Below, piece by piece: positions 34,466 through 46,030 of a DNA stretch of 64,000 nucleotides. The stretch is from Cellulosimicrobium sp. Marseille-Q4280 (lineage in GTDB: Bacteria; Actinomycetota; Actinomycetes; Actinomycetales; Cellulomonadaceae): contig NZ_CALPBY010000001.1 in assembly GCF_943181405.1 (NCBI RefSeq), positions 806,001 to 870,000 of the forward strand. The letters are read 5' to 3'. Position numbers and translations under genes: made by a program. The notes under the pieces are model-generated. The model was not told where the DNA came from. It did not search any database and was given only the letters and a program-made list of their open reading frames with translations. Within the stretch, counting starts at the first letter, position 1, and every line of letters starts with the position of its first letter.

Positions 34466-35958
34466 ATGGGATGGTACGCGCGGCTCGGGCAGTGGAACGA
34501 GGAGCACCGCTTCGGGGTCGACCTCACCCTCACGCTGCTCGTCGCGGTCGTCTTCGTCCCGTCCTCCGCCGCCTTCGCGCCGAACGCCGGGACCGTCGGC
34601 GCAGACCTCAGCGGTGGATGGGGTGCGGTCTGGGCCACGCTGCTCCTCGCGCCGCTGCCCTGGCGCCGCGTGCGCCCGGTCGCGTCGGCCGTCGCGGTCT
34701 TCGCCGTGGCGCTGCTGCACCTGCTCGCCGGCTACCTCCTGCTGCTGCCCGCGGACTTCGCCGTGCTCGTCGCCCTGTACTCCGTGACGGTCTACGGGCC
34801 GCGCTGGGCCCACCGCACGGCGATCGTCTCGGCGCTCGTGGGCGCGGTCGTCCTCGGCCTGGCGCTCGGGCTGCGCTCCGGCAGCCTCGCGGACCTGGCG
34901 ACCATGGTCTTCTTCACGTCCGCCTTCGGCGGCATGACGTTCCTCGCCGTGTGGGCGTTCGGACTCGTGCGCCGCTCGCGGCGCGAGACCATCGCCGCGC
35001 TCGTCGACCGGGCGGAGCGGCTCGAGGTCGAGCGCGACCAGCAGGCACGGATCGCCACCTCCGCGGAACGGGCGCGCATCGCGCGCGAGATGCACGACAT
35101 CGTGGCGCACTCCCTGTCCGTGATCATCGCCCAGGCCGACGGCGGCCGGTACGCCGCCGCCTCCGACCCGGCTGCGGCACAGCGCGCGCTGACGACCGTC
35201 TCCGAGACGGGGCGGGCCGCGCTCGCCGACATGCGCCGACTGCTCGGCGTGCTGCGCACCGAGGCGCCGCGTCCGTCCGGCGCCCCGGTCGCGGGGCCCG
35301 GCGCGCCCAGGGCCGCCCTCCCGGCCGCGGACGCGACGCCGGCCGGCGGGGAGCCGCCCGCGACCCTCCCGACGCTCGAGACGACGCCGCAGCCGGACAC
35401 GGCCGACCTCGAGACCCTCGTCGCGCAGGTGCGCGACAGCGGCCTGCGCGTGTCCCTCGTCCGCGTCGGCCAGGCGCGACCTCTGCCCCCCGGCGCCGGC
35501 CTCACGGTCTACCGGGTGTGCCAGGAGGCGCTGACGAACGTCCTCAAGCACGCCGGGCCCGACCCGACGGTCACGGTCGTCGTGCGCTGGGACGCGACCT
35601 CGCTCTCGCTCCTCGTCGAGGACGACGGCCGCGGCGCGGCCGCGGAACCCCCGGGCGCAGCGCCGGGGCGGTCGGGCGGCTACGGCCTGCTCGGGATGCG
35701 CGAGCGCGCCGCCCTGTTCGGCGGGAGGGTGACGACCGGTCCGCGGCCGGCGGCGGGTCCCGCGCCCACCCCCCCTCCCCCCTGCCTCCGGGCACTCGCC
35801 GGGGCGCGGGGCCCAGGGGGTCGGCGCGGACGCGGGTCCCCCTACCGCCGCTCCCTCCTCGCGCGACCCCCGCGACGCCCGCGAGCCCTGCGGGGCCCGC
35901 GCCGGCGACCGGTCCGGCGAGCACTCTGCCCACCCCCACGACCGACAGGACGCCATGA
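34466..35958 (+). CDS. NarL-type sensor histidine kinase, frameshifted near the 3' end
   Basis: The N-terminus has about five membrane helices (residues 20-170). Then come a coiled segment and the HisKA_3 motif ARIAREMHDIVAHSLSVII (His210), an N-box VCQEALTNVLKHAG, VEDDGRGA and GYGLLGMRERAALFGG. After GPRP at about 35750 the frame no longer matches the family. The -1 frame gives GGGSRAHPPSPLPPG, resembling the normal last strand, and ends at 35958, overlapping the next start as ATGA. In the unshifted frame the protein would run to 36505, over most of the response-regulator gene, which is implausible. One base seems missing between about 35745 and 35785, near a C7-T-C6 run. The catalytic boxes lie before the shift. 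Confidence 0.85.
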
Positions 35959-36683
35959 CCGACGCCACCGCCCTCCTCCCGTCCGACGAGCCCGCGAGCG
36001 CCCCGGTGCGCGTCGCCCTCGTCGACGACCAGCAGCTCGTGCGCGCGGGGTTCCGCATGGTCATCGACTCCCAGCCCGACCTGCAGGTCACGGTCGAGGC
36101 GGGCGACGGCCTGCAGGCGCTGCGGCTCCTCGCCGACCACCCGGTCGACGTCGTCCTCATGGACGTGCGCATGCCGCACCTCGACGGCCTGCAGACGACG
36201 GCACGGCTCACCGCGGCCGCCGCCGAGGGAGCGCACGTGCCCCGCGTCATCGTCCTCACGACGTTCGACCTCGACGAGTACGTCCTCGAGGCGATCCGGA
36301 CCGGCGCGAGCGGCTTCCTGCTCAAGGACGCCCCGCCGGAGGAGATGCTCGCGGCCATCCGCACGGTGCACCGCGGGGACGCGGTGATCGCGCCGTCCTC
36401 GACACGACGCCTCCTCGAGCACCTCGTCACGGCGCTGCCCGCCGAGCAGGTCGCGGACTCCCCCGCGCACGCGGCCGTCGAGGGCCTCACGGAGCGCGAG
36501 CGTGAGGTGCTCCTGCTCATGGCGCGCGGCCGGTCCAACACGGAGATCGCGAGCGACCTGTTCGTCGCCGAGGCCACGGTCAAGACCCACGTCGGCCGGA
36601 TCCTCGCCAAGCTCGGCGCGCGCGACCGGGTCCAGGCCGTCGTGACCGCGTACGAGACCGGCCTCGTCCGCCCCGGGGCCTGA
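35955..36683 (+). CDS. NarL/LuxR-type response regulator
   Basis: A 242-residue regulator. Receiver: VALVDDQQLVRAGFRMVI, phospho-acceptor Asp70 in VLMDVRMPHLDG, and LLKDAPPEEMLAAI. The C-terminal HTH reads LTEREREVLLLMARGRSNTE and VKTHVGRILAKLGARDR. Start ATG at 35955 overlaps the corrected stop of the kinase gene by 4 nt, the usual coupling for such pairs. The following ABC transporter (38214 on) would be the natural target, but an unrelated gene and repeats now lie between them. Confidence 0.95.
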   Translation: MTDATALLPSDEPASAPVRVALVDDQQLVRAGFRMVIDSQPDLQVTVEAGDGLQALRLLADHPVDVVLMDVRMPHLDGLQTTARLTAAAAEGAHVPRVIVLTTFDLDEYVLEAIRTGASGFLLKDAPPEEMLAAIRTVHRGDAVIAPSSTRRLLEHLVTALPAEQVADSPAHAAVEGLTEREREVLLLMARGRSNTEIASDLFVAEATVKTHVGRILAKLGARDRVQAVVTAYETGLVRPGA

Positions 36684-36695
36684 CGCCACCCGCGC

Positions 36696-36741
36696 CTGTC
36701 AGCGATCCACGGGCCCCGGGACCGGCTCGGTGCTGACAGCT
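36696..36741. repeat. 46-nt palindromic repeat, copy 1a
   Basis: Ends are perfect 8-nt inverted arms CTGTCAGC (36696-36703) and GCTGACAG (36732-36739). It matches copy 2a (37941) at 37 of 46 positions and is followed by a 15-nt spacer and copy 1b. Confidence 0.85.
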
Positions 36742-36756
36742 CGAGACGCGATGCGA

Positions 36757-36802
36757 CGGTCAGCGCTCCACCGGTCTCCGCGTCGGTGGGCCGCTGACAA
36801 CC
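36757..36802. repeat. 46-nt palindromic repeat, copy 1b
   Basis: 7-bp inverted arms GTCAGCG and CGCTGAC near the ends. The right end GCTGACAACC is identical in copy 2b. It ends 14 nt before the stop of the minus-strand AbiEi/DUF559-like gene. Confidence 0.8.
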
Positions 36803-36815
36803 TCAGGGTCCTCCG

Positions 36816-37766
36816 CTACGCCGCGAGCGCGAGCCGTGCGAGGTGGTGCCGGACGATCGCGAGCACGCGCTCCGGCTCCCGCCGCGCGGCCATCGCCGGG
36901 AGACGCAGCCGGACGGTGCGCGCGTCGCCGCCGCCCAGCTCGGCGTCGCGCAACAGGTCGTCGTACCAGCGTCGGCGGTCGATGTGCCCGACGCCGTCGA
37001 TCTCCACGACGAGCCGCCGCCCACCGGGCAGCCTCCACTCGACGTCGAGGAACCGCCACCGCCCGCTCGCGTCGCGCCGGCGGGACTGGCGAACCGGTTC
37101 CGGCAGCCCTGCCCGGCGGCACAGCCGTGCGAAGTCGATCTCGGCGAGCGAGTCCGTCCCGCCCGCGACGTCGCCGAGCGCGTGCCGCATCGTCCGTCGG
37201 TGTCGCACCGCGCCCACCTCGTCCAGCTTCTCGAGCAGCGCGCCGGGCGTCGTGAGGCGCTGCTGGACGACGGCCGCCATCAGTCCCGCGGCGGTCCGCC
37301 ACGACGGCTGCCACGCCGCGGCGTCGACCGCCGCGCGCTCGACGACGTGGACGGGCAGCCCGTCGAGGTCGCCGACGTCGGCGGTCGCCGGACGCCGCGA
37401 CTCGTGCACGACGAGCCACGGCGCGCGGTCCGCCCGCTGACCTCGCGCGATCACGAGATGGACCGGTGCCCGGTCCCAACCCGTCAGTCCGTGCAGAGCC
37501 AGGGCGGTCCACGCACCGATCGCCGCGTCCGGTGGCGCACCGAGGACGGCGGCCCAGAGCCGGGCCTCCCGGACGAGAGGGCCTCGGTGCAGCACGAGCA
37601 CGTCCCGGCTGACGCGTCGCCACCTGCGGGCACGCTCCTGGTGGGCGATCTCGTCGCAGGTCACGCCGAGAAGCGTCAGCTGCGCCCGCGCCACCACCCC
37701 GTGCTGCCGGGACGCGAGCCCGCGCAGCCCGGTGACGTCGTCGAGAAAGCTCGCTCGTCCGCTCAT
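36816..37766 (-). CDS. AbiEi/DUF559-like protein with a predicted endonuclease-fold C-terminus
   Basis: A 316-residue soluble protein. The N-terminal ~170 residues resemble the winged-helix start of AbiEi-like antitoxins (RQHGVVARAQLTLLGVTCDE, then RDVLVLHRGP). The C-terminal ~110 residues have the DUF559/Vsr-like pattern: SLAEIDFARLCRRAGLPEP, FLDVEWRLPGGRRLVVEIDG and YDDLLRDAEL, with acidic residues placed as in PD-(D/E)XK-type nucleases. Such proteins are common in actinobacteria and their role is unproven. A CACGAT box lies 7 nt before the ATG. The gene sits between two copies of a 107-bp paired-palindrome element and between a two-component system and an ABC transporter, so it looks like an insertion. 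No toxin partner is visible. Confidence 0.75.
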   Translation of the reverse strand: MSGRASFLDDVTGLRGLASRQHGVVARAQLTLLGVTCDEIAHQERARRWRRVSRDVLVLHRGPLVREARLWAAVLGAPPDAAIGAWTALALHGLTGWDRAPVHLVIARGQRADRAPWLVVHESRRPATADVGDLDGLPVHVVERAAVDAAAWQPSWRTAAGLMAAVVQQRLTTPGALLEKLDEVGAVRHRRTMRHALGDVAGGTDSLAEIDFARLCRRAGLPEPVRQSRRRDASGRWRFLDVEWRLPGGRRLVVEIDGVGHIDRRRWYDDLLRDAELGGGDARTVRLRLPAMAARREPERVLAIVRHHLARLALAA

Positions 37767-37773
37767 GGGCGCG

Positions 37774-37779
37774 ATCGTG
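37774..37779 (-). promoter_or_regulatory. -10 box of the DUF559-like gene
   Basis: CACGAT on the minus strand, 7 nt before the ATG at 37766; leaderless pattern. Confidence 0.45.
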
Positions 37780-37940
37780 CCCGTGCTCGACGTTCCGGTC
37801 GTGCCCCGGGGGGCGGCACTGTGGAGAAGAAGGTCGCCGACCGCTCCTGTGGACGGCGGCGGTCCGCGGGATCCCGCCGTCGGTCAGTCCCTCACGGCGA
37901 CGAGAGCGTCCGGGCCAGCGGCGCCGTCGGGATACCGGAC

Positions 37941-37986
37941 CTGTCAGCGCTCCCCCGGCCCGCAGACCCGCTCAGGGCTGACAGCT
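37941..37986. repeat. 46-nt palindromic repeat, copy 2a
   Basis: Perfect 8-nt arms CTGTCAGC (37941-37948) and GCTGACAG (37977-37984). Same length as copy 1a and followed by the same 15-nt spacer length before copy 2b. Confidence 0.85.
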
Positions 37987-38001
37987 GAGAGGCCCGCGAA
38001 C

Positions 38002-38047
38002 CTGTCAGCCGCCCACGGGTCTCCATACCTCCTGGACGCTGACAACC
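38002..38047. repeat. 46-nt palindromic repeat, copy 2b
   Basis: 7-bp arms TGTCAGC and GCTGACA; the right end GCTGACAACC matches copy 1b. It completes a 107-bp element whose geometry equals that at 36696-36802. Confidence 0.8.
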
Positions 38048-38132
38048 GCGGGGCGTCGCGTACGACCACGGGATGACAGCCCGCCCGTGAGGTCCCGACC
38101 GACGCCGGACGCGACGACGGCGGGCCGGTCCG

Positions 38133-38168
38133 TAGCGTCGAGGACGTTACCCGGGCGACGTCCCGGGT
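38133..38168 (+). promoter_or_regulatory. Promoter and candidate operator of the ABC transporter
   Basis: TAGCGT -10 box at 38133-38138, then a perfect 7-bp inverted repeat ACCCGGG/CCCGGGT (38149-38155, 38162-38168) just after the expected start site. The repeat may bind a regulator such as the nearby NarL-type protein; that is inference. Confidence 0.4.
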
Positions 38169-38213
38169 GCACCTCTCGAGACATCCGCACAGCAGCTGAC
38201 ACCAGGAGACGAC

Positions 38214-39074
38214 GTGGACACGACCGTGTACCGACCCGCCGAGCCCGCACCCGACGGCGGCCCCGGAGCGAGGACGGCCGGCCCAGCGGTGCGCGCCCGC
38301 GCGCTGCGCAAGACCTATGGCACGGGCGAGGCGGTCGTGCGCGCGCTCGACGGTGTCGACGTGGACTTCGAGCGCGGGCACTTCACCGCGATCATGGGCC
38401 CCTCGGGCTCGGGCAAGTCGACGCTCATGCACCTGCTCGCCGGGCTCGACTCCGCGACGGACGGGCACGCGTTCATCGGCGACACCGACGTCACGCGCCT
38501 CAACGACAACGCGCTCACCCAGCTGCGCCGCGACCGCGTCGGCTTCGTGTTCCAGTCGTTCAACCTCCTGCCGATGTTCACGGCGGAGCAGAACATCACG
38601 CTGCCGGTCGAGCTCGCGGGCGGCACCGTCGACCGCGCGTGGTTCGACACCCTGGTCAGCACGCTCGGCCTCCAGGCACGCCTCACGCACCGCCCGAGCG
38701 AGCTCTCGGGCGGCCAGCAGCAGCGCGTCGCCATCGCGCGGGCGCTCATCGCCGCCCCGGAGGTCGTGTTCGCCGACGAGCCGACGGGCAACCTCGACTC
38801 GCGCTCCGGCGCGGAGGTGCTGAGCTTCCTGCGCCGCAGCGTCCGCGAGCTCGGCCGCACGATCATCATGGTCACGCACGACCCGGCGGCGGCGGCGTAC
38901 GCGGACCGCGTCGTGCTCATCGCCGACGGCCGCATCGCGGGCGACATCGCCGACCCGACGCCCGAGTCGGTGCTCGCCGGCCTCGACGCGCTGCGCACGC
39001 TCGAGGTCGCCGGACCGGACGAGCGCGGCGACGTCGCGGCAGCGGGTGCGGCCACGGGGACGGTGCGCGCCTGA
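38214..39074 (+). CDS. ABC transporter ATPase (MacB/LolD type)
   Basis: A 286-residue ATPase. Walker A is GPSGSGKST (residues 62-70), the Q-loop region FVFQSFNLLPMFT, signature LSGGQQQRVAIAR, and Walker B VVFADEPTGNLD. The GTG start has AGGAGA upstream. It powers the FtsX-type permease encoded next, with which it overlaps by one base (TGATG). Such pairs work as mechanotransmission systems rather than classical importers, often against antibiotics or envelope stress. Acts at the inner face of the membrane. Confidence 0.94.
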   Translation: MDTTVYRPAEPAPDGGPGARTAGPAVRARALRKTYGTGEAVVRALDGVDVDFERGHFTAIMGPSGSGKSTLMHLLAGLDSATDGHAFIGDTDVTRLNDNALTQLRRDRVGFVFQSFNLLPMFTAEQNITLPVELAGGTVDRAWFDTLVSTLGLQARLTHRPSELSGGQQQRVAIARALIAAPEVVFADEPTGNLDSRSGAEVLSFLRRSVRELGRTIIMVTHDPAAAAYADRVVLIADGRIAGDIADPTPESVLAGLDALRTLEVAGPDERGDVAAAGAATGTVRA

Positions 39075-41749: not shown

Positions 41750-44700
41750 GTGCCCGCCCCGACCGCTCCCGCTCCCCCGCAGCCCGCCCCTGCCCGGGCG
41801 GCTCTCCCTGCTCCCGGGGTGGCGGGCGCCGCCGCGCGGGTGACCCTGCGGCCGGGCACGGACCTGCTGCTCGACGTCGGCGTCCGCCTCGGCGACGCAC
41901 GACAGGCCCTCGCCGACCTGACGTGCCGGCCCGAGCTCCTCACCGCACCGCTGCGCGTCGACGGCGTCCGCGTCGACGACGACCAGCGGTGCGGCACCCG
42001 ACCCCTCCTCCCCGGCGCCACGCTCGCGACGGACGACGCGCGTGAGGACGCCGCACGCCCGTGGGCCGCGGACGTCCTCGCCGCGCCGTGGCACGTCGCC
42101 GTGGTGGGCGGCCCTCGCGCCGGCCGGCTGGTGCCGGTCACGCCCCCGGCCGCGCCGGGCCGGCAGTCCGGGGCGCGGACACCGGACGGCCTCGTCGCGG
42201 TCGACGCGCTCGAGGTGCGGTCGACCCGGGTCCGGCGGGGACACGTCGTGCGGGTCCGTGGCCCGCGGGGCGCGTTCCGGGTGCGGGCCGCCGACCCGGC
42301 CCGGCCCGCCGCCCGGGGCTCGGGGCGCCGGCGCCGCCTCTCGCCGAGGTGGGCGACACGCTGGCGCGAGGGGCACGTCGTCGTGCACGGCTCGACGACC
42401 TACGCGCTGCGGCCTCGCCCGCGCCTCGAGCACGCGCCCCGTGTGCCGCCCTCGGACGCGGTCGCGGTCGCGGGGACGACCGCGGGCCCCGAGGCGTCGC
42501 GCCGCTGGAGCACGCACCTCGCGACGGCGCTCACCCCGGCCGTGGCGTCGCTCGCGCTCGCGGTGACGTTCCGCCAGCCGCTGTACGCGCTGCTCGCCCT
42601 CGTCGGTCCGCTCGCCCTGCTGCTGCCGGCGCTCCTGGACGCCCGACGTCGTCGCACCGCCGGGCGCGACGCCGGCGACGGACCCGGGACGGGTCCCGGC
42701 GGCGTCCCGGGCCCCGGGCGGGGCGGCGTGCCGGCCGCGGCTGCCGGCGGGGCCGCGGGGGCTCGGTCCCCCGACCCTCTGCGGCCCCGCCCCGCCGACG
42801 TGCTCACCTGGGCAGCGGTCGCCCACCTCGCCCCCGACGACACCGTGCAGGCCGTTCCCGGCCGTGCGGTCGTCGATCATGGCCCCCCTGCCGGCCCACC
42901 GGCGGGCCGACCGACCGGGTCGACGCCGGGGTCCACCACGGACGACGGGCTCGGCGTCCGGCTGCCGGACGGCTGCATCGCGGTGGTCGGCCCGCGGAAC
43001 GCGGCCCTCGCGGCAGCACGCGCCGTGCTCGCCGAGCTGCTGACCTCCGGGGCCGCCCCGACGGTCCGGCACGGACCGGGTGCGGCGTCCGACTGGTCCT
43101 GGTGCCGGTGGCTGCCGCGGAGCACGCTCGTGCGGAGCCTCGACGACGCCGCGGCCGCTGCCGCTGCCGCGAGGCTGCTCGTCGTCGACGGCGACCTCGC
43201 GCCCGGCGAGCTCGCTGCCGCGTGGGAACGGCTCGGCCCTGCGGGGGCACGCCTGGTCCTCGTCGCGCGCGACGTGCAGGCCGTGCCCGCGTGGTGCCGC
43301 ACCGTCCTGGCGGTCGGCGGCGACGACGCCGTGCTCACCGGGGCGGACGGCGTCGGCACGACGACCCCGTACGTCGGCGTGGACGTCACATGGGCCCAGG
43401 AGCTCGCCCGTCACCTCGCGGCGGCCGAGCACCTCGGCCGGCTCCGTGCGCCCGGCGTCGCGACGGTCCCCGACGGCTGCGACCCTGCGGCGTCGACCCT
43501 CCCCGACGACGTCTCCCTGGGAGCTCTCCTCGGTGCACCGGCGGCGCCCGAGCCGGTCGGCGCGACGGTCGCGTGGGTCGCCGACCGCTGGCGGCGCGCC
43601 GCGACGCGCGACGGCCGAGGCCTCCCGGTCCCGCTCGGCGTCGGCCCGGGCGGTACGCCGGAGGTCGTCGACCTCGTCGCCGACGGTCCGCACGTGCTCG
43701 TGGCAGGCACGACGGGCGCGGGCAAGTCCGAGCTCCTCCAGTCCCTGGTCGCGGGTCTCGCGCTCGGACGCTCGCCGGCCGAGCTGACGTTCGTGCTGGT
43801 CGACTTCAAGGGCGGCGCGAGCTTCGGTGAGTGCGGGAGGCTGCCGCACGTCGTCGGTCAGGTGACGGACCTCGACGCAGGTCTCGCCGGGCGGGCGCTC
43901 GCCGGTCTGCGGGCGGAGCTCCGCCGTCGGGAGCGCGTCCTCGCCGCGGCGGGCGCCGCGAGCGTCGACGACGTGCCCGCGGGCACGCTCCCCCGGCTGG
44001 TCGTGGTCATCGACGAGTTCCGCGCGCTCGCCGACGAGCTGCCCGAGTTCCTCCCGGGCCTCCTGCGCGTCGCCGCCCAGGGCCGCTCGCTCGGCGTGCA
44101 CCTCGTGCTCGCGACGCAGCGCCCCGCCGGTGCGGTGAGCGCGGACGTGCGCGCCAACATCACGCTGCGGCTCGCGCTGAGAGTCGTCGACGCCGCGGAC
44201 TCGCGCGACGTCGTCGAGTCGCCCCACGCGGCGCTGATCCCCACCGGGACACCGGGGCGGCTCGTGCTGCGCCGCGGCGCCGCCCCACCCGTCGCGCTCC
44301 AGTGCGCGCGGGCCGGGGCACCGGTCCCGGTGCCGACGGCCGGGGTCCGTGCTGCCCCGGGCTGGGGCGCCACCACGCTCCCGGCCGACGACGCCCTCGC
44401 GCGCGGCGGGGGCGAGGGCACCCCGGCGCCGGACACCCTCGCACGGCTCGTCGACGCGGCCCGCACCGTCGCCGCCAGTGCGGGGATCACGACACCCGGC
44501 CCGCCGTGGCTGCCCGCGCTGCCGGAACAGGTCCGCGCGCGGGACCTCGGCGCCCTGGGCGCCCTGAGCGGTCCGGTCGACGCCCGGCGCGAGCCCAGCG
44601 GTCCGGTCGGCCCGGACACCGAGGGCGCCCTCGGGACGGACGCTCGCGCGACGCTGCCCCTGGCTCTCGGCGACGACCCCGACCACCAGCGTCGCGTCGT

Positions 44701-46030
44701 CGTCGGATGGGACCCGCGGGACGGCCACCTCGCCGTCCTCGGACGCGCGCGCTCCGGACGGACGACGACCCTGGTCGCCCTCGCGCACGCCGCCCTCGCG
44801 CAGGGCTGGCACGTCCACGCCGTCGGAGCGCGGCTCGGCGAGATCGCGGCGCACCCCGCCGCCGGGACCGTGGTCGACCGCTCCGACGCCCGGCGCGTCG
44901 CGCGGCTGCTGCGCCTCCTCGCGCAGCACGACGACGGACAGGACCGACCCGTCGGGGCGCTCGGCACGGCGCCCACCCTCGTCCTCGTCGACGACGTCGA
45001 GGCGGTCCGTTCGACGCTCTCGGCGCTCGCGGGGGGCGCAGGGGCCGACCTGCTCGCCGAGGCGCTCACGGAATCCGGCGCGGCCTTCGCCGTCGCCGGG
45101 TCCGGGCCGACCGTCGCCGGTCTGGCCGCGTGCATCGGGGTCCGCACGGTCCTGTCGTCCCGCGACCGCCACGACGACGTGTCCCTCGGCGTCCCCGCCC
45201 CGCTGGCGGGGCGAGGCGGCCCTCCCGGCCGGGCGGTGTGGATCGGCCCGGGGGAACCCCTCGTCTGCCAGGTCGTCCTGCCGGACGTCGACCCGGCGGA
45301 CCCCGGCCTGGTGGACCCCGGCCCGTTGCGCCTCGCCGTTCTGCCGACGACGATCCGCGAGAGCGCGCTGCACGTGGCCGACCGTCCCCGCGTCCCAGGC
45401 CTGCCCGACGAGGTGCCCGTGGGGATCGGTGGTGACGACGCGTCCGTGCTCACGCTCGACGCGAGCCGCGGCGCCCTGGTCGTCGGTCCGCCCGGCAGCG
45501 GGCGCACGACCGCGCTCGTGCTGCTCGCCCGGCACGCACGGACCGTGGGCGTGCTGCGCGGGGTCCTCGCGCGCGACCGCTCGCTGCAGGACGTCGCGGG
45601 GCCGGGCGTCGCCGTCGGCGGACGCTTCTCGCCGGCCGAGGTCGGCCGCGTCCTCGATGCGGTCGTCGCGTCGGGTACGACGCCGGGGGCCTCCGGGGCT
45701 CCTGTCCTCGTCGTCGACGACATCGACCAGCTCGCCCAGCTGTGCGTGCTCGAGGCGGACCGCGTCGCGGCGCTGTGCCGCGAGGACGTGCGCCTCGTGG
45801 CGTCCGCGGCCACCGGGTCGGCGGTCATGGCGATGCGGGGTCCGCTCGCCGAGCTGCGCGCACGACGCTCGGGGATCGTCCTCGCGCCGGCGGAACGAGG
45901 GAGCGGCGAGGTCTTCGGTCACGACCTGTCGTGGCTCGCCGACCCAGGACGTCCCCGACCGGGGCGAGGCGTCCTCGTCGAGGGCTCGCGGCTCGCACCG
46001 GTACAGGTCGCGCTCCCCGACGGAGGATGA
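41750..46030 (+). CDS. FtsK/SpoIIIE-type ATPase, EccC/EssC-like, three ATPase modules
   Basis: A 1426-residue protein. The N-terminal ~250 residues are beta-rich and could be FHA-like. A hydrophobic hairpin (~270-300, LYALLALVGPLALLLPALL) should be in the membrane. Module 1 has an intact Walker A GTTGAGKS (653-660) and Walker B LVVVIDEFRAL (Asp755, Glu756), plus VLVDFKGGASF. Modules 2 and 3 have GRARSGRTT (from 998) and GPPGSGRTT (from 1246), where the Walker lysine is arginine, so they are probably inactive. This layout matches type VII secretion motor ATPases. No WXG100, EccB, EccD or mycosin gene is in the window, so it is an orphan here. Confidence 0.85.
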   Translation: MPAPTAPAPPQPAPARAALPAPGVAGAAARVTLRPGTDLLLDVGVRLGDARQALADLTCRPELLTAPLRVDGVRVDDDQRCGTRPLLPGATLATDDAREDAARPWAADVLAAPWHVAVVGGPRAGRLVPVTPPAAPGRQSGARTPDGLVAVDALEVRSTRVRRGHVVRVRGPRGAFRVRAADPARPAARGSGRRRRLSPRWATRWREGHVVVHGSTTYALRPRPRLEHAPRVPPSDAVAVAGTTAGPEASRRWSTHLATALTPAVASLALAVTFRQPLYALLALVGPLALLLPALLDARRRRTAGRDAGDGPGTGPGGVPGPGRGGVPAAAAGGAAGARSPDPLRPRPADVLTWAAVAHLAPDDTVQAVPGRAVVDHGPPAGPPAGRPTGSTPGSTTDDGLGVRLPDGCIAVVGPRNAALAAARAVLAELLTSGAAPTVRHGPGAASDWSWCRWLPRSTLVRSLDDAAAAAAAARLLVVDGDLAPGELAAAWERLGPAGARLVLVARDVQAVPAWCRTVLAVGGDDAVLTGADGVGTTTPYVGVDVTWAQELARHLAAAEHLGRLRAPGVATVPDGCDPAASTLPDDVSLGALLGAPAAPEPVGATVAWVADRWRRAATRDGRGLPVPLGVGPGGTPEVVDLVADGPHVLVAGTTGAGKSELLQSLVAGLALGRSPAELTFVLVDFKGGASFGECGRLPHVVGQVTDLDAGLAGRALAGLRAELRRRERVLAAAGAASVDDVPAGTLPRLVVVIDEFRALADELPEFLPGLLRVAAQGRSLGVHLVLATQRPAGAVSADVRANITLRLALRVVDAADSRDVVESPHAALIPTGTPGRLVLRRGAAPPVALQCARAGAPVPVPTAGVRAAPGWGATTLPADDALARGGGEGTPAPDTLARLVDAARTVAASAGITTPGPPWLPALPEQVRARDLGALGALSGPVDARREPSGPVGPDTEGALGTDARATLPLALGDDPDHQRRVVVGWDPRDGHLAVLGRARSGRTTTLVALAHAALAQGWHVHAVGARLGEIAAHPAAGTVVDRSDARRVARLLRLLAQHDDGQDRPVGALGTAPTLVLVDDVEAVRSTLSALAGGAGADLLAEALTESGAAFAVAGSGPTVAGLAACIGVRTVLSSRDRHDDVSLGVPAPLAGRGGPPGRAVWIGPGEPLVCQVVLPDVDPADPGLVDPGPLRLAVLPTTIRESALHVADRPRVPGLPDEVPVGIGGDDASVLTLDASRGALVVGPPGSGRTTALVLLARHARTVGVLRGVLARDRSLQDVAGPGVAVGGRFSPAEVGRVLDAVVASGTTPGASGAPVLVVDDIDQLAQLCVLEADRVAALCREDVRLVASAATGSAVMAMRGPLAELRARRSGIVLAPAERGSGEVFGHDLSWLADPGRPRPGRGVLVEGSRLAPVQVALPDGG

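Follow-up and report, generated by a model that had tools for sequence, protein, structure and literature searches.

A stretch of 64,000 nucleotides from the genome of Cellulosimicrobium sp. Marseille-Q4280 (contig NZ_CALPBY010000001.1, positions 806,001 to 870,000; hereinafter the window) harbors a gene coding for an AbiEi-like/DUF559-like protein, which is enclosed between two tandem pairs of palindromes, referred to below as doublets. We consider it rather probable that this unit (36690..38047, with approximate borders; the block is absent in 14 of 16 congeners) belongs to a dispersed-repeat system composed of a protein plus its palindromes, resembling REPIN-RAYT in its working but relying on an unrelated protein of the AbiEi/DUF559 type. 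The observations on which this idea is based are the architecture of the loci, the covariation of palindrome tips with the protein, the gene-linked dispersal of the palindromes in two clades, their insertion at two sites when compared with congeners, and the lack of detectable covariation between the arms of a palindrome.

The palindrome of the window has the form TGTCAGC-N28-GCTGACA, measures 42 bp from tip to tip and occurs four times, in two doublets. The doublet located downstream of the gene embeds a first copy at 36697..36738 (TGTCAGC...GCTGACA) and a second one at 36758..36799 (GGTCAGC...GCTGACA), the latter with one mismatch at its first base; the upstream doublet consists of the 42-bp copies at 37942..37983 and 38003..38044. 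In both doublets the two members start 61 bp apart and are separated by a 19-nt spacer, in agreement with the 46-nt units and 15-nt spacer described in the initial annotation. The motif TGTCAGC-N20..40-GCTGACA has three exact matches in the window (0.02 expected from shuffles), and the same three places are the only ones matching TGTCAGC-N24-32-GCTGACA in the whole 4.86-Mb host genome. Thus, the earlier statement that the element is found nowhere else is correct for the exact TGTCAGC tip, whose copies lie around the window gene only, but not for its one-letter relative TGTCAGG-N28-CCTGACA. The host genome indeed possesses a second homologue of the gene (59% identity to the window protein), which is adjoined by TGTCAGG-N28-CCTGACA palindromes, and exact copies of TGTCAGG...CCTGACA (N26-30) are found 33 times in this genome and never in the 16 congeners. 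In the stretches fetched around the copies, with the flanks of both genes included, 22 of 28 host palindrome sites are doublets, with offsets of 61-63 bp. The short tags proposed for the two members of a doublet (GCT following the first copy and ACC following the second one) are present in both window doublets but are not general at other sites; conserved tags and a conserved spacer sequence were rejected as a general rule, and what is kept across sites is the length of the spacer (18-21 nt), not its sequence.

The gene itself (36816..37766, minus strand) encodes 316 amino acids, and its description as AbiEi/DUF559-like is borne out, more clearly for the first half than for the second. Residues 6-201 (37164..37751, minus), embedding a winged helix and a nucleotidyltransferase-like domain, have the AbiEi-type antitoxin fold (Foldseek E 5.5e-6); PADLOC also labels this N-terminal half AbiEi, from which we do not read a defence function. 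Residues 206-314 (36825..37151, minus) form the DUF559-like part, a probable nuclease of the PD-(D/E)XK type. The similarity to the DUF559 profile is weak, the best score being 20.2 bits (curated cut-off 20.6) in one order-level relative, with E below 0.01 in 4 of 23 relatives; residues D241, E255, D257 and H261 are invariant in all 23 aligned relatives, and a structure match was obtained to 3hrl, which we take to be an entry of DUF559, a domain presumably linked to Vsr. The weak profile similarity, the 3hrl match, the invariant acidic residues and H261 are shared with DUF559/Vsr-like endonucleases; unlike these, the domain found here is joined to an AbiEi half and associated with palindromes. 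No transposase profile was found for the window protein in Pfam, NCBIfam or PHROGs, and a sequence search against solved structures gave no significant match.

The association between the gene and its palindromes is not a peculiarity of the window. One genome per species was scanned for relatives, which gave nine named ones spanning five genera and a metagenome-assembled genome: at least one TGTCAG-type palindrome lies beside the gene in all nine and on both sides in eight, and at L078, where the gene is broken, the palindrome is on one side only. A profile search of 221 genomes of the family, with the 10 best first-look candidates scored per genome, revealed a close group of 24 loci in 22 genomes and a second clade found in 10 genomes at E of roughly 1e-50 to 1e-63, the close gene being present as well in one of them; below this clade there is a gap, followed by generic genes at E 1e-20 or weaker. 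In the wider order, with 5 candidates scored per genome, homologues at E 1e-12 or better are present in 89 of 396 genomes, and 24 loci were drawn from the 79 genomes with a match lying outside the family. An exact TGTCAG-N30-CTGACA is present at least once in each of the 24 close loci. When tandem palindromes were sought without regard to the tip, TGTCAG doublets emerged in 17 of the 24 close loci and doublets with CGTCCG tips (42 bp, offset 62-63 bp) in 9 of the 10 loci of the second clade, whereas wider offsets (73-94) were found beside three close genes (L095, L097 and L098).

In a stricter flank test, both sides of the gene had to show, within ~340 bp, palindromes agreeing in their 7-base tip and in length. 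Among the 19 close loci, with the window and the paralogue counted, 16 were positive (L086, L031 and L097 were not), as were 10 of 10 loci of the second clade and 15 of 24 order-level homologues, giving 41 of 53 loci overall; among the generic loci, some of which (L118-L121) are cut by contig ends, 1 of 7 was positive. The controls gave 0 positives among 480 dinucleotide-shuffled flanks of order loci and 2 among 864 mismatched flank pairs. This count leaves out five close loci whose genes are broken or cut (L090, L099, L101, L113 and L115), each having at least one exact TGTCAG palindrome. In the cases L078/L099, L079/L113, L080/L101, L081/L115 and L033/L090 the gene is broken or shortened and the adjoining palindromes persist, as if the repeats outlived the gene. 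Two generic AbiEi/DUF559-like genes, more distant ones, are likewise flanked on both sides, L119 (in the scan made without regard to the tip) by GGGGAG-type doublets of 43-45 bp (1254-1357 and 2550-2666) and L120 by 56-bp CAGAGAT palindromes, so that the association may extend to genes outside the family treated here.

The tip sequence follows the protein clade. The order loci exhibit many different tips and palindrome lengths from 34 to 50 bp, and on the protein tree the 14 states of the tip hexamer, assigned to 46 labelled rows, are explained by 14 changes, while none of 500 shuffles needed fewer than 21; the tip labels were assigned by us from the flank scans, with shifted registers of one tip counted as different states. 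The seventh tip base taken alone shows no clear pattern on the tree. This covariation, together with the dispersed copies that accompany the gene, fits the suggestion, already made from the window sequence, that the palindromes are cognate sites of the encoded protein. Six genomes from other families of the order (G261, G245, G276, G341, G428 and G493) harbor three to five homologues each, and the few flanks examined in such genomes show different palindrome tips.

The genome-wide distribution of the palindromes also goes with the gene, in line with the earlier proposal of a REP/MITE-like element. All 22 genomes with a close gene contain TGTCAG-N30-CTGACA, in 6-200 copies; among the 199 family genomes in which no close gene was detected, 17 have at least 6 copies and 162 have none. 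Sixteen of these 17 belong to gene-bearing genera, as would be expected if genes are lost and the repeats then decay. As for CGTCCG-N30-CGGACG, 208 of the 211 genomes lacking a second-clade gene have 0-23 copies and the other three more than 23, a value exceeded in 9 of the 10 genomes possessing the gene; the tenth, which is 61% complete, has 23. The ceiling of 23 was chosen after the table had been seen and the genomes are related, so that Fisher values for the gene-repeat association overstate its significance. Hundreds of single copies at random spacing, the picture by which an ordinary intergenic repeat was to be recognised, is not what emerged: copies lying less than 60 nt apart are offset by 60-63 bp in 33 of 33 cases, from six genomes. 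Five genomes (G190, G193, G187, G186 and G016) have 31-109 TGTCAG palindromes with no close gene detected, which might mean either that the gene was lost recently or that a cognate gene escaped detection, and three (G062, G080 and G096) have an excess of CGTCCG copies (37-60) and no second-clade gene, G080 possessing a weak homologue (E 3e-21). A hidden cognate gene between successive palindromes was sought by eye among open reading frames (ORFs) of at least 100 aa in the intervals of L035, L040, L045, L050 and L052, from genomes with and without the gene, and none was recognised.

How such a site might be read can be deduced from the variation among copies. As the tips served to find the copies, the conservation of the tips is in part built in. 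Among the positions that the search pattern did not fix, 17 is a C in all 92 arms and 19 in 88 of 92, with variation at positions 8-16. Within one copy of the host genome the two arms agree at 8.46 of 14 positions (8.81 after shuffling), and no significant excess of arm covariation within copies was found in any of the five genomes analyzed (the host and four others). That the arms of the same copy resemble each other no more than those of different copies fits monomers sitting on double-stranded half-sites, not a selected hairpin. A selection for RNA or single-strand hairpins was accordingly rejected, in view of the missing covariation, a modest folding and the absence of Rfam matches above the cut-offs. 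PMC7319586 reports that AbiEi binds two 23-bp inverted repeats placed 3 bp apart and that Rv2827c binds four such repeats in two sets; in comparison, a doublet of two 42-bp palindromes would correspond to four half-sites of ~21 bp.

The same data bear on the idea that the palindromes are ordinary intergenic hairpins, such as transcription terminators or RNA stability elements, flanking the gene by chance. They are palindromic and GC-rich, and a terminator-like hairpin kept in 11 of 14 congeners at the empty site could be the terminator of the left gene. However, besides the lack of covariation between arms, only one of the four window copies folds as single-stranded DNA much better than shuffled sequences (z -4.0; -1.1 to -2.1 for the others), terminators need neither shared tip letters nor a regular doublet spacing, copies at two sites lie inside ORFs, and no Rfam family reached its cut-off in 36500-38300. 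We regard this explanation as very improbable.

The main rival is a different one, i.e., that the protein is a transcription factor of the AbiEi type, the upstream doublet being its own operator and the dispersed copies the operators of other genes in a regulon. The clear AbiEi fold, the arms behaving as independent double-stranded half-sites and the intergenic position of many copies (by rough gene calls) speak for it, as do the AbiEi-family proteins described in PMC7319586 as repressors of their own promoters through paired ~23-bp inverted repeats. This possibility appears unlikely to us. Palindromes with the same tip are found also downstream of the gene in the 41 of 53 loci positive in the strict test, and the comparison of three dispersed TGTCAGG sites of the host genome, aligned with congeners, points elsewhere. 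At site 1, a single copy lies in an open ORF and is absent in 13 of 14 congeners, the fourteenth (G110) having a TGTCAGC copy there; at site 2, three congeners have TGTCAGC copies and 13 have unrelated or no linker sequence; at site 3, a doublet absent in all 11 alignable congeners (five were unalignable) lies within an oxidoreductase-like ORF that exceeds its G114 counterpart by 34 residues and keeps its frame open. Two of the three sites are thus gains of a palindrome or doublet with respect to all or nearly all aligned congeners, and not point changes in promoters, and copies at two of the three are inside ORFs. As the same site holds copies of different dialects in different congeners, dispersed sites are apparently reused or overwritten by different dialects. 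In four species a hypervariable linker (L201:4102-4206) is occupied by palindromes that differ in dialect, and in 13 it holds unrelated sequence or none, which suggests preferred or rewritable sites.

A further point concerns palindromes co-located in different species. In 22 pairs picked by hand from the list of palindrome sites, mean similarity is 0.551 to the co-located copy, 0.603 to the copies of the own genome and 0.516 to the other copies of the other genome. The resemblance to the own genome is carried by species having different inner cores, whose co-located sites are closer to their own genome's copies, a point against the regulon reading; it is not seen for the pair G121 and G125, whose cores are of one type. 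The comparison is no more than suggestive of a concerted evolution of the palindromes.

The history of the gene locus has to be considered separately from that of the dispersed copies. The order of genes is the same in all nine named relatives: a histidine kinase gene, the response regulator gene (35955..36683, plus strand), the unit, the gene of an ABC transporter ATPase (38214..39074, plus strand) and FtsX, the functions of the two immediate neighbors being read from sequence. In 14 of the 16 congeners, both doublets and the gene are lacking and the neighboring genes lie 205-296 nt apart, compared with 1530 nt in the host. Eleven of these empty sites keep a GC-rich hairpin like the core of the genus palindrome, which could be a plain terminator, one (G110) has a half-palindrome with GCTGACA, and two have neither. 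The gene is also at the orthologous locus in L082, L088 and L089, and at other places in L031, L112, L091, L092, L093, L094, L097 and L100. The conserved gene order and the scarred empty sites look like those of an old, inherited resident that was repeatedly lost rather than of an insertion.

This is relevant to a third alternative, according to which the unit is what remains of an ordinary mobile element, a small transposon with the palindromes as its ends, the enclosed gene as its transposase and the dispersed copies as its MITEs. The occurrence of one palindrome type at both ends, the short dispersed derivatives and the block missing in 14 of 16 congeners would be in agreement with it, and ends of a small mobile unit had been among the possibilities initially listed for the window locus. 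This latter suggestion is not sustained, given that the gene is at one place in nine of nine named relatives and that 12 of the 14 empty sites resemble losses with scars. Moreover, the window protein has no known transposase domain; it has no relative in 72,556 plasmid records (E 1e-15) and none was confirmed in viral contigs; one unannotated phage record encodes a relative at 36% identity (MT837139.1:3682-4521); and a target-site duplication was not recognised by eye at one clean empty site, where the flanks have diverged. We consider a mobile remnant quite improbable. No plasmid relatives were found for L137 (E 1e-8) or L119 (E 1e-6) either.

How, then, might a protein-plus-palindrome system of this kind work? 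We tentatively propose, as a possibility falling somewhat short of an even chance, that AbiEi-DUF559 proteins, at least in several actinobacterial families, each spread and homogenise a private palindrome by cutting the sites they bind, with repair then copying a palindrome from one site to another. In the REPIN-RAYT-like reading favoured above, the AbiEi-like half of each monomer would read one half-site of ~21 bp, with the conserved tip (in the window, TGTCAGC) at its outer end. A 42-bp palindrome would consist of two such half-sites in inverted orientation, and a doublet, with its two palindromes spaced by about six helical turns, would have room for four monomers; the home of the gene would be marked by one doublet on either side. 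In relatives, and for the host paralogue, the same type of protein would have spread and maintained palindromes at tens of other sites; the DUF559-like half would probably cut or nick bound palindromes, and repair would then copy one palindrome to another place. At the window locus, the gene would have been passed vertically, with palindromes decaying after its loss. Binding by the window protein, nuclease activity, copying and decay after loss are the parts of this scheme that we infer. The sites upstream of the gene (37942-38044) have a size that would suit binding by an AbiE-type antitoxin. Some findings weigh against doublets being dispersed wherever the gene occurs. In two congeners doublets make up only 3 of 22 and 3 of 27 sites; and for two clades with a single palindrome, the stretches scanned (0.40 Mb in G549, 0.38 Mb in G261) contained no exact dispersed copy of the two tips, G549 having one looser match, although these stretches cover roughly one tenth of the respective genome, too small a share to be decisive.

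The system belongs to neither of the two groups that it most recalls, as it differs from REPIN-RAYT in its protein and in the lack of hairpin pairing and has no AbiE toxin in sight. REPIN-RAYT systems, according to PMC3116915 and PMC3733652, combine palindromic repeats scattered over the genome, among which doublets are over-represented, with a dedicated gene on the chromosome that lies near such repeats or is flanked by them. The likeness lies in a gene flanked by its own repeats (41 of 53 loci in the strict test) and in repeats dispersed as doublets (22 of 28 host sites). The differences are that the protein is AbiEi-like and DUF559-like and not an HUH/Y1 tyrosine transposase, that the palindromes carry no GTAG tag, that their arms lack hairpin covariation, and that a doublet consists of two complete tandem palindromes instead of two inverted REPs. 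CGTC-tagged REPs are described in PMC3733652 as short dispersed palindromes without a dedicated transposase, mainly of Alphaproteobacteria, in which CGTC is an unpaired motif at one end; CGTCCG is here, in contrast, the paired tip of one actinobacterial clade. With the antitoxins of AbiE type IV toxin-antitoxin systems, including M. tuberculosis Rv2827c, the protein shares the fold of residues 6-201. Unlike in AbiE, however, no toxin gene was recognised beside the unit in the window or in any of the nine named relatives (by ORF reading and synteny, no toxin profile being run), a DUF559-like domain is added, and the sites flank the gene on either side and are also scattered elsewhere in the genome. 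The gaps reported for Rv2827c in PMC7319586 (13 bp within pairs and 4 bp between them) also differ in size from those of the window doublets.

Rickettsia palindromic elements are short palindromic repeats that occur also in frame inside genes, and no dedicated gene is known to us for them; the copies observed here inside ORFs recall them in this respect. REP-type palindromes are common in bacteria, and to our knowledge the only protein tied to them is the HUH transposase RAYT. A link of DUF559 or AbiEi to dispersed palindromes was not found in the open-licence PMC literature, mostly represented without full text. A different, little-characterised family, listed as antitoxin in profile libraries, here shows a RAYT-like tie to palindromes; owing to its natural specificity code of tip versus clade, direct tests of recognition, cutting and copying are feasible. 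This offers a possible function for orphan AbiEi/DUF559 genes and calls for caution in labelling them as antitoxin or defence genes. If the spreading of private palindromes by AbiEi-DUF559 proteins were true, it would represent a non-HUH counterpart of REPIN-RAYT, one that rewrites DNA between genes and even within coding regions with 42-bp palindromes, and would provide a candidate mover for RAYT-less REP-like repeats. The system would merit a separate class if the protein were shown to bind and copy the palindromes.

Lastly, outside the unit, the window embeds a very long ORF (41750-46030, plus strand), possibly a type VII secretion ATPase, whose product we take to be FtsK/EccC-like from its sequence.
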